Below, one piece after another: positions 35,724-37,960 of a stretch of 64,000 nucleotides of DNA; the stretch's first letter is position 1; each line of letters opens with the position of its first letter. The DNA comes from Natronoarchaeum mannanilyticum (GTDB lineage: Archaea; Halobacteriota; Halobacteria; Halobacteriales; Natronoarchaeaceae), in assembly GCF_039522665.1 (NCBI RefSeq), contig NZ_BAAADV010000004.1:62001-126000 (forward strand), written 5' to 3'. A model generated the notes under the pieces. That model was given only the letters and a program-made list of their open reading frames with translations, made no database searches and was not told the origin of the DNA. Made by a program: the position numbers and the translations under genes.

Positions 35724-35932
35724 ACCGGCGGAATCAGTTGGGCCGGCGGGGCTATCGGCCCGCCCACGGTCGAACCGTGTACTACGGCCGTACCACACTG
35801 TCTTCGGATACCAGTCAATGGACGCTCGGTCGGGATTCGGTCGGCGTGTGGTACACCAGCGTGCGCTGGTATTGACCTATAACGACTTGAGAATTATAAA
35901 TTCATGTATGCCATTGGTAATTAGCGTTAGAA
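35724..35932. repeat. Structured repeat, copy A
   Basis: A 209-base sequence repeated at about 37607-37820. In order it holds hairpin H1 (GGCGGG 35745-35750 / CCCGCC 35759-35764), H2 (CACGGT 35765-35770 / ACCGTG 35774-35779), a long-range stem TACCACAC 35791-35798 / GTGTGGTA 35846-35853 and H3 (ACCAGC from 35855 / GCTGGT to 35870). The end is AT-rich with TTGAGAATTATAAATTCATGTATG split over 35887-35910. Compared with copy B, H2 and H3 keep pairing through paired base changes. It may be a non-coding RNA transcribed on either strand or a mobile-element end. Confidence 0.6.
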
Positions 35933-36124
35933 ATACTAAATGTGTGAGGAGAAATTTCGTATCACCTCTATGCGGGTTGAGGGCACGCATCTACAGACAC
36001 AGGTAAAGACAGTGCATTAGGTCCAGTAAACTACTAGATCAGCGAACGGTAGTGTTCGGACTATCGCGAGATAGCAATTCACCAAGCTACCCAAACAGTC
36101 GACATTTGATGTGAAATAGGGATT

Positions 36125-36183
36125 CGCCGCGAGGGGGAACGTAACTCCCAGCTGAACCGGGTTTCTGCCCAGTACTCGCGGCG
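36125..36183. repeat. Imperfect long hairpin in intergenic DNA
   Basis: CGCCGCGAG (36125-36133) is inverted as CTCGCGGCG (36175-36183). The 41-base loop contains further short GC pairs. The surrounding DNA from 35933 to 36257 is less GC-rich and has no supported gene; it also contains CTATCGCGAGATAG at about 36060. Confidence 0.45.
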
Positions 36184-36257
36184 GTCGGTGAATACAATCA
36201 GAACAAATATTCACGCGTGGCAAGCGCGCGCTACGCAGGTCCGCCGAAAGGTAGTTG

Positions 36258-36321
36258 GTCGGAGAGATTTGAACCGCGAGGACTTCGTTTTGCTCGTCTT
36301 GCGCGGTTCAAACCCTCCGAC
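36258..36321. repeat. tRNA-Trp 3'-end-derived hairpin
   Basis: The left arm (36258-36278, GTCGGAGAGATTTGAACCGCG minus its last base in quoting) matches the complement of the tRNA-Trp 3' end (GGTCGGAGGGATTTGAACC) at 18 of 19 positions. The right arm (36302-36321) is its inverse with one small bulge. The loop holds GACTTCG and CTCGTCTTGCG, closely similar to the loop of the tRNA-Glu-derived hairpin at 44.7 kb. Confidence 0.65.
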
Positions 36322-36363
36322 GTGAATACCTCAGGCTCCTCACGTCCGTTTGTCGCCAGAGAG

Positions 36364-36379
36364 AGTGGGGTCGGAGGGA
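36364..36379. repeat. 16-bp copy of the tRNA-Trp 3' end (candidate att site)
   Basis: AGTGGGGTCGGAGGGA here is identical to 40038-40053, which is the 3' end of tRNA-Trp plus two flanking bases. It lies 60 bases from the 3' end of the integrase gene, the usual place for the distal attachment site of a haloarchaeal integrative element. Confidence 0.65.
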
Positions 36380-36439
36380 ACCCTCTCCTGAACTGCGATG
36401 GTCAGTCGGGCTGTACGAGCCGATTTTTGGGCGAATATC

Positions 36440-37147
36440 TCACTCATTGCTGTCTTCGATATCAAGTTTCAGGGTTTTCTCTGCGCGCAGTTCCTCGAAC
36501 CCCTCGCGCTCGGTCGCCTTGTAGTAGTGCCGGCGGATCGTCTCGAGCCGGGCGTTCACTCGCTTGGCGACCGTTTCGATATCGAGCCCACGTAGCAGCT
36601 GCCACGTGATCGATCCGGTGCGGATCGCGTGGGGTGACCGCGACGACGGGCACTTACTGGAGAAGTTCCGCCGGGTGTAATCGCACGTCGCGCGACGCTT
36701 CCCGTGAGGGCACGCCTCGACGACGCACGGCTGGGTGCCCATGTACGACCAGGCGCGGAACGTCGAATCGGACGGGCGTCCCTGCCGCCCGGAGAACAAC
36801 GGTTCTCGACCGTTGTCGTCTCGCTTCGCGAATCGCTCGCGTTCGATGTACGCCTGGAGCGCGTCGACGACGGACTCCGAGATCCCGACGATCCGCTCGC
36901 CTTCCGTCTTGTTCTTGAGAAGGGTCGGCGGTCGGTGACGGAATTCGAGCGTCTGTCGATCGGGATCGAAGTCCCGGAGGTCGAGCGCCCGAACGCCGCT
37001 CATTCGCGCTCCGACGTGCCACGCCACTTCGAGAAAGGCGTGCTTGGGTCGCCCGAAGTGCTTCTGCGACGAACGGTAGAACGACGGGAGCTTCGTCTCG
37101 TCCTCCGCTTTGAGTTTCTGGTCGTTCGACGACGCGCTGTACGCAGC
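36440..37147 (-). pseudogene. Tyrosine recombinase/integrase, N-terminally truncated
   Basis: The open frame (236 codons, first GTG at 37027) contains only the catalytic domain. The residues are Arg in VGARMSGVRALDLRDFD (box I), Lys in KNKTEGERIV, HAIRTGSITW (His-x-x-Arg, box II) and the tyrosine in RRHYYKATER. A cysteine segment (VVEACPHGKRRATCDY) is typical of haloarchaeal integrases. A TGA at 37148-37150 cuts the frame, and the N-terminal core-binding domain (about 150-200 residues) is missing. The gene is probably inactive but still beside its att site. Confidence 0.75.
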
Positions 37148-37184
37148 TCACGGCACCGAAATCACCTAGGCGTTCGTCGTCACC

Positions 37185-37601
37185 ATGGCGGTGATCTTCA
37201 TCGCCTGGACCACGAACGGCCAGACCACGCGCGAGGATCTGACCGACATGGAGTTCGTCATCGTGCTCCTGATGGTGATCCTCAAGTTCCAGCTCGACCG
37301 GGCGAGCTGGCACGACGCGCGATTCAAGAACGGAACGCCCGTCGAGATCAAGAGCACGATGGTCGAGCACGCCGACGGCCAGCCGGGTAACTTCAAAATC
37401 TACCGGTAGTATCACGATCGGCTTCGACGAGCTGACGGCTGGTACTGTTTCGTCGTGTACCGCCCGCACGGCCGAGAGGGCTGTACCGTGCTCGACGACA
37501 AGATGGTCCGCGCTGGCGATCTCCCGCTAATCCGGTGGCACGGTGGCGGCGATCACCGCGATACCCAACAGGCGAAACTCGGGATTGACGAACTTTTCTA
37601 A
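37185..37601 (+). pseudogene. Nuclease-like protein of integrative elements, broken by an in-frame TAG
   Basis: The second half of the first frame reads [20 protein letters not shown] and then [18 protein letters not shown], followed by TAG 37407-37409. The same frame goes on as YHDRLRRADGWYCFVVYRP, then LPLIRWHGGGDHRDTQQAKL and ends at TAA 37599-37601. This is one coherent domain with a PD-(D/E)xK-like core (EIK). The first 35 residues (membrane-like) look like a different gene fused to it. The gene at 39.3 kb has a related EIKSA domain. Confidence 0.62.
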
Positions 37602-37606
37602 GAATG

Positions 37607-37820
37607 ACCGGCGGAACATGATGGTGAGGCGGCGGGGCTATCGGCCCGCCCACGACCGGGGTCGTGCATTACGCCTGTACCACACGACGGTAGATACCAG
37701 CGGATGGGATGCTCGATCGGGATTCGGCCCTCGTGTGGCACGCCAGCACTATGCTGGTATCGATCCTACGGGCTTGAGAAATATAAATTCATGTATGGTA
37801 TTGGCAATTGGTGTTGGCAA
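37607..37820. repeat. Structured repeat, copy B
   Basis: Second copy of the element at 35.7 kb, in the same orientation. H1 is GGCGGG 37631-37636 / CCCGCC 37645-37650; H2 is CACGAC 37651-37656 / GTCGTG 37661-37666; the long-range stem is CCACAC 37680-37685 / GTGTGG 37733-37738; H3 is CCAGCA 37743-37748 / TGCTGG 37752-37757. H2 differs from copy A at two base pairs and H3 at one, all with both partners changed. The distance between the long-range arms is 55 bases in both copies. Confidence 0.6.
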
Positions 37821-37864
37821 TTCGATATCTATGAAGTAATAGTTCACTACAGATGTGAATGAGT

Positions 37865-37960
37865 GGCGGGCACCCACCCGCCCACAGGAGCTCCCGTGTA
37901 TTACCCTCGGTATGCCAATGAATCGACGAGCGGCAGTTCCAAAACCACCGCGAAGTAATA
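37865..37960. repeat. Structured repeat, degenerate copy C
   Basis: GGCGGG (37865-37870) / CCCGCC (37877-37882) is followed at once by CACAGGAG/CTCCCGTG (37883-37898), the same H1-H2 order and spacing as in copies A and B. GTGTATTACC after H2 matches GTGTACTACG in copy A. The later parts are not clearly alignable. It begins 45 bases after copy B. Confidence 0.45.

Follow-up and report, generated by a model that had tools for sequence, protein, structure and literature searches.

Regulatory RNAs that act on ribosome-binding sites are known from the archaeon Methanosarcina mazei, in which sRNA154 masks such a site through a loop and sRNA41 has been suggested to cover those of polycistronic messenger RNAs (mRNAs) (PMC5867862). 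In Haloferax volcanii the regulatory RNA hvo_1211s is reported to affect motility (PMC13286277), and viral effects on motility are already known as well, since transcripts for archaellin and chemotaxis fall when a tailed virus infects its haloarchaeal host (PMC12542753). A structured non-coding element of a different kind is the origin of the virus SNJ2, which has been defined experimentally as a hairpin ~200 nucleotides (nt) downstream of rep (PMC13107129). Here we describe structured repeats in a 64,000-nt stretch of the Natronoarchaeum mannanilyticum contig NZ_BAAADV010000004.1 (hereafter the window, part of contig 4 of a haloarchaeal genome of ~3.6 Mb). Judged by their shared sequence and fold, three of them, here called A, B and M1, most likely belong to a family of haloarchaeal small RNAs that had not been described before. 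Genomes, loci and contigs are labelled G, L and C, respectively, and the window's own genome is G000.

The family would be a further variant of the trans-acting antisense kind, and it shares with sRNA154 and sRNA41 the character of a structured intergenic archaeal RNA and the (here predicted) masking of a ribosome-binding site; those RNAs, however, belong to methanogens, have targets in nitrogen and carbon metabolism and are described without mobile-element paralogues (PMC5867862). The haloarchaeal sRNA132 (PMC6560208) and s479 (PMC8155600) are likewise intergenic regulatory RNAs with predicted trans targets, whereas they concern other genes and organisms, and their abstracts describe neither a three-way-junction family nor viral copies. 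By contrast with the predicted pairing of a loop in trans at archaellin starts, the mode of action suggested for hvo_1211s is that it overlaps the cirA mRNA (PMC13286277). Bacterial flagellar small RNAs also tune the genes of a motility filament, but they are bacterial and the organelle is non-homologous (cited in PMC13286277). The SNJ2 origin resembles the repeats in being a structured non-coding element near rep in the same virus group, and differs in being a short DNA hairpin directly downstream of rep, the counterpart of which is present here apart from the RNA genes (PMC13107129).

Read on the minus strand, A and B are paralogous copies of a structured RNA of ~115-136 nt, and their alignment, in register at a spacing of 1886-1887, comprises one 30-nt block of 93% identity and blocks of 73 and 41 nt with 75-83% identity. 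The first-pass annotation had assigned to both copies, in the same order and spacing, three hairpins (H1, H2 and H3) and a long-range CCACAC/GTGTGG stem, and all of these features are found where it placed them; two base pairs of H2 and one of H3 differ between A and B, with both partners changed each time. Its H1 (GGCGGG..CCCGCC in the window copies) and H2 are indeed hairpins, which now prove to be the arms P2 and P1, respectively, of a three-way junction with a conserved single strand, GTARTA, closed by a further stem, P0, which covaries as well: AGGC/GCCT in B corresponds to GGCC/GGCC in A. H3 (CCAGC..GCTGG) forms the 5' hairpin, and a long stem P3, which reads GTACCACAC/GTGTGGTAC in A, encloses a small hairpin, GAT[CGAGC]ATC in B and GAC[CGAGC]GTC in A. 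What had been taken for a degenerate third copy does repeat the junction of H1 and H2, yet it is the junction of a second and shorter paralogous RNA, M1, that sits ~100 nt upstream of B; the neighbour of A at the same upstream offset is only a decayed M1.

The proposal that the paired changes are the mark of a conserved RNA fold holds beyond chance. Double-sided changes occur at 12 of 33 pairs among 8 homologues (shuffle mean 5.7) and at 23 of 33 pairs, in 84 cells, among 16 homologues (shuffle means 13.4 and 24.9), values reached by 0 of 500 shuffles in each case, and with 16 homologues 93.7% of the cells are paired as opposed to 38-48% when the partners are slid by 1-3 columns; the alignments having been fitted to the model, these counts are biased upwards, and kinship among the sequences inflates the shuffle tests. 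Despite this bias, the substitutions in P0, P1, P3 and H3 can be read directly in the sequences. A covariance model with at least ten homologues, suggested in the first-pass annotation as a check, was built and bore out the fold, with paired substitutions in 16 homologues. G-U pairs (15 cells) outnumber A-C mismatches (6 cells) on the modelled strand, and RNA from that strand is therefore mildly favoured. Pairing is kept while the copies diverge to ~60-75% in sequence. B is 97% identical between the window and a second provirus of G000 (locus L009), as compared with 92% for the adjoining gene and 84% for the upstream intergenic DNA; M1 of the same two proviruses is 85% identical, with no excess over its surroundings.

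G000 holds more than the three copies originally claimed: C1 and C8 bear others, among them a chromosomal orthologue, and the second provirus contains a third full copy (L009 8100-8235). In G001, which belongs to the same genus, copies lie at L011 6102-6232 and L010 5729-5852, each with an M1 ahead of it, and a B-type copy is present in two viral contigs of overlapping content with tail-type genes (L017 and L018 of IMG/VR). A scan of 394 genomes of the order with two covariance models (R1 and R2), in which the best eight candidates per genome were scored, added members in G003 and G005, one further copy each in G000 and G001, and M1-only copies; among these candidates, convincing matches were confined to genomes of the window's family. 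M1-like sequences were found by DNA similarity on two Natrinema megaplasmids (L236 and L237, near 4975-5110; E 2e-5 and 4e-6), and since their model scores are poor we regard them as probable members only; both lie downstream of the same F420-dependent oxidoreductase gene. The scaffold appears modular and common to chromosomes, pleolipovirus-like proviruses and a tailed-virus contig, and probably to plasmids.

No Rfam family matches the RNA at the gathering threshold; for the chromosomal copy none was found at E up to 10, and B gave far sub-threshold chance matches only. A literature search found no paper describing this RNA. Several candidates were set aside: the 14 scattered bacterial matches to an exact pattern of the P2 hairpin among 84,980 genomes were taken as chance, an apparent chance match in the IMG/VR contig L016 lies within coding DNA, as do L234 and L235, model matches in other families are weak (E 0.007-0.1), and the matches L167, L199 and L146 of G000 lie within genes.

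In four genomes from two genera (G000, G001, G003 and G005) one copy each occupies a fixed chromosomal locus beside tRNA-Lys, divergent from the same gene (protein MQRRAA...), its 3' end facing a provirus-holding region next to tRNA-Met. In all three comparisons made the RNA has changed less than the gene beside it (95.6 versus 79.2%, 97.4 versus 93.0% and 77.6 versus 60.7% identity). The same flanking gene was followed to 22 further loci in other genomes, and no RNA accompanies it there.

The apical segment of this chromosomal RNA, GUGUAUCCUCGCGUU(CG), is invariant across the four copies, and a search of G000 with the reverse complement of the loop returned one site at one mismatch, the 5' untranslated region of an archaellin gene (PF01917, Arch_flagellin), where it ends right before the start codon. 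The two loci are separate, the RNA lying at C1:780.6k and archaellin at C2:128.7k. The same search in eight relatives found a site ahead of archaellin in G001, in G003 and twice, before paralogues, in G005, each, like that of G000, with at most one mismatch and 3-4 nt before the ATG; in G003 there is a further one-mismatch match that is not at a start, and none elsewhere falls at a start codon. Five archaellin genes over the four RNA-bearing genomes hence carry a complementarity of 15-18 nt at the ribosome-binding region, and the five genomes of the family without the RNA have no site at one mismatch. A 15-nt block is identical in the five untranslated regions, flanked by bases that differ between the genera. 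In the window's genus the pairing is uninterrupted for 18 base pairs and stops at the base preceding the AUG; within 1.33 Mb this RNA has no longer match outside its paralogues. When 6155 start regions were ranked by duplex energy, that of archaellin came first, and a control with reversed sequence gave some start-proximal 18-mer for 24 of 20,000 random stretches. Computationally, the evidence for archaellin as the predicted target of the host copy is strong.

We consider it likely that these are antisense-type small RNAs in which a conserved scaffold (5' hairpin, three-way junction and GUARUA strand) presents a variable apical loop, the chromosomal member being directed at archaellin and the mobile members at other mRNAs. 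Homology, covariation, promoter-like boxes, conserved synteny and the complementarity between loop and target are established by the sequences themselves. In the chromosomal RNA the loop GUGUAUCCUCGCGUU would pair with the region just upstream of the archaellin AUG, and such pairing, covering the ribosome-binding region, would block translation of the archaellum filament protein; repression by occlusion is the outcome that we infer, activation or stabilisation of the mRNA being other possible ones. In A, B and M1 the scaffold is kept and the loops are different, and the copies of proviruses and other mobile elements, B and M1 included, would most likely act in the same manner on other mRNAs.

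A number of considerations weigh against this reading. That the RNAs are transcribed, that the chromosomal one represses its target and that A, B and M1 have a function of any kind are inferences from sequence. Translation in haloarchaea is often independent of a Shine-Dalgarno site, for which reason repression by the chromosomal RNA is not certain. The absence of the archaellin site from the five genomes that lack the RNA was checked to two mismatches at most. The mobile loops pair with archaellin start regions no better than shuffled sequence, and no convincing target for A, B or M1 was found in the ~1.3 Mb of G000 searched, so that it is the chromosomal member alone for which an antisense mechanism has support. 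Start-proximal matches to the B-type 13-mer inspected in G000 and G001 looked like coding DNA or chance. Separately, an M1 copy at C8:239.5k shows extended pairing of its loop with the start region of another archaellin-like gene, one that lies close to cheB/cheY/cheW and ranks 6th of 1149 genes (loci L167, ~902 from the minus end, G000 C1:~79.1k, and L162, 19513-19606, minus strand); we regard this as a weak lead and not as a result.

The AT-rich end of the repeats had been proposed as a promoter for transcription on the minus strand, and the position of the AT content agrees with this: of all upstream 8-mers, the one richest in A and T begins 25-27 nt ahead of the model start in A, in B, in the L009 and L011 copies and in all four chromosomal copies (AATTTATA, ATTTATAA, TGATATAT, TATTAATA, ATTAATAT and TTCTTTAT). 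Exceptions are L010, where the box is weak, L017, in which an equally AT-rich stretch lies elsewhere, and the M1 copies, which are mixed. A, B and M1 would be transcribed from promoters of their own, on the window's minus strand.

Judged by its genes, the element that spans 36364-40053 of the window is a decayed SNJ2-type pleolipovirus provirus and a relative of the one at L009 (Table 1). Its ends are 16-nt duplicates, attL and attR, which places B inside the provirus and A outside it, ~490 bases beyond attR. The first-pass annotation had the repeats lie around a decayed integrase; this gene is present but incidental, being enclosed in the provirus together with B. Its further suggestion of an RNA borne by a mobile element is right for B and several homologues. 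The L009 provirus (L009 3000-14000; G000 C1:753-764k) adjoins tRNA-Met, is nearly complete and encodes proteins of the NTPase and spike types besides an intact Rep-Arvir (PF25227, E=1.9e-109), with no integrase among the listed open reading frames; it also holds an additional partial duplicate of the gp18-like gene next to the RNA pair.

Table 1 Features of the window, with strand and supporting evidence
Feature	Position	Strand	Description and evidence
RNA gene B	37627-37762	-	5' hairpin, P3 with apical GAT[CGAGC]ATC hairpin, three-way junction P0/P1/P2; covariance-model match 167.9 bits and covariation
RNA gene A	35741-35874	-	Paralogue of B, outside provirus; covariance-model match 143.4 bits
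RNA M1	37861-37952	-	Includes the former third copy (C) and the 5' hairpin belonging to it; shorter paralogue, same three-way junction, in tandem with B
Decayed M1 upstream of A	35982-36070 (limits approximate)	-	Same offset as M1 from B; alignment-based
TATA-like box of B	37782-37789	-	AATTTATA on minus strand; starts at -27; sequence feature
TATA-like box of A	35894-35901	-	ATTTATAA; starts at -27; sequence feature
attL	40038-40053		3' end of intron-bearing tRNA (40040-40212, minus strand, Rfam); 16-nt exact duplicate
attR	36364-36379		AGTGGGGTCGGAGGGA, duplicate of tRNA 3' end; provirus = 36364-40053
Decayed tyrosine integrase of provirus	36440-37027	-	PF00589 E=7e-5, phrog_1
VP1-like gene remnant	37118-37285	+	95% identical to L009 13608-13775
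gp18-like gene remnant	37286-37602	+	phrog_2095 in L009; end 5 bases ahead of B repeat
Replication-origin-type hairpin	38107-38129	-	Counterpart of SNJ2 Rep-Arvir origin; apart from RNA genes
Rep-Arvir (DUF7845) gene fragments	38309-38621	-	80% identical to L009 Rep

The tRNA at attL has, by eye, a CCA anticodon region and is probably tRNA-Trp, and an earlier att site may have left the further tRNA-like piece near 36262-36330. Elsewhere in the window, where the Rfam scan matched only tRNAs and sR-tMet, the latter C/D-box RNA lies at 13687-13759 on the plus strand (69.4 bits). Integrases and family RNAs recur together: relative to G000, G001 has on C1 a small insert (L011 4080-6282) in which an integrase, a small gene and an M1-B pair replace a small HicB-like frame, possibly a minimal mobile unit, and two integrase genes (L076 4845-5882, and L010 10106-11305 of G001) have their 3' ends ~200 nt from an oppositely pointing family RNA. 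Nothing indicates that the RNA is the att site; that idea arose because homology between genomes stops just past the RNA 3' end, and it was rejected in that 52 kb of G001 showed no second copy of this 3' end and the provirus of the window has a tRNA as its site.

Among the other explanations that we weighed, the one of most weight, albeit unlikely, holds that the mobile copies A, B and M1 are decoys, whose scaffold titrates a putative protein bound by the chromosomal RNA and which lack a target mRNA. Between the mobile and chromosomal types the loops are far less well kept than the junction and P2, as a decoy would have it, and the ~1.3 Mb searched yielded no target at a start site for loops of the mobile type. 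Copies in two genomes and one viral contig nevertheless share the B-type loop GAUCGAGCAUCC, a conservation that a decoy would not need. A chance match between loop and archaellin, the RNA having some other function, strikes us as more improbable still. It would fit a case with a single target gene, itself known from computation, but not the recurrence of the match in four genomes and five archaellin genes, the lack of any other start codon at one mismatch, or the top energy rank and the reversed-sequence control reported above. Two further readings, as a guide for pseudouridylation or as a mimic of CRISPR repeats, were weighed by eye and set aside.

Readings of the repeats as DNA elements fare worst. 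That they are hairpins of rolling-circle replication, either the Rep-Arvir origin or a single-strand origin on the displaced strand, is very hard to sustain: a Rep-Arvir gene does lie nearby in both L009 and the window, and viruses of this kind replicate via single-stranded intermediates with a hairpin origin (PMC13107129), yet that origin hairpin, recognised by position and hairpin in the window and at ~6108 of L009, is present separately beside rep, and three known betapleolipoviruses have no match to the model. The orientation of the RNA relative to the origin is the same in L009 and the window and opposite in G003, where the RNA is the chromosomal copy beside a remnant; chromosomal copies in four genomes, promoter boxes and an antisense loop to archaellin would all be left unexplained or contradicted. 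Equally remote is a transposon end or a mobile DNA repeat resembling a miniature inverted-repeat transposable element, with no RNA function. Several copies per genome in mostly mobile contexts are what such a repeat would give, but not divergence to the extent seen with pairing kept, nor orthologous placement in four genomes, and at the L011 insert the closest thing to a terminal or target-site repeat is a chance match of 10 nt. With the origin hairpin lying apart and copies kept at a conserved chromosomal locus, the earlier alternative of an element end recognised as a DNA hairpin is not supported.

Taken as a family of antisense-type small RNAs, the repeats suggest that one RNA scaffold is used by both host and viruses for the control of genes. 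It is conceivable, though we would sooner doubt it than expect it, that viruses captured or donated the archaellin-silencing scaffold and swapped its antisense loop, which would make it a portable silencing cassette by which integrated viruses control host surface or motility genes, or rival elements. If our reading is true, the archaellum filament protein would be under the control of a trans-acting RNA in Archaea, for which a literature search found no precedent, and the family would offer a tractable case of host and viruses sharing one regulatory RNA design.
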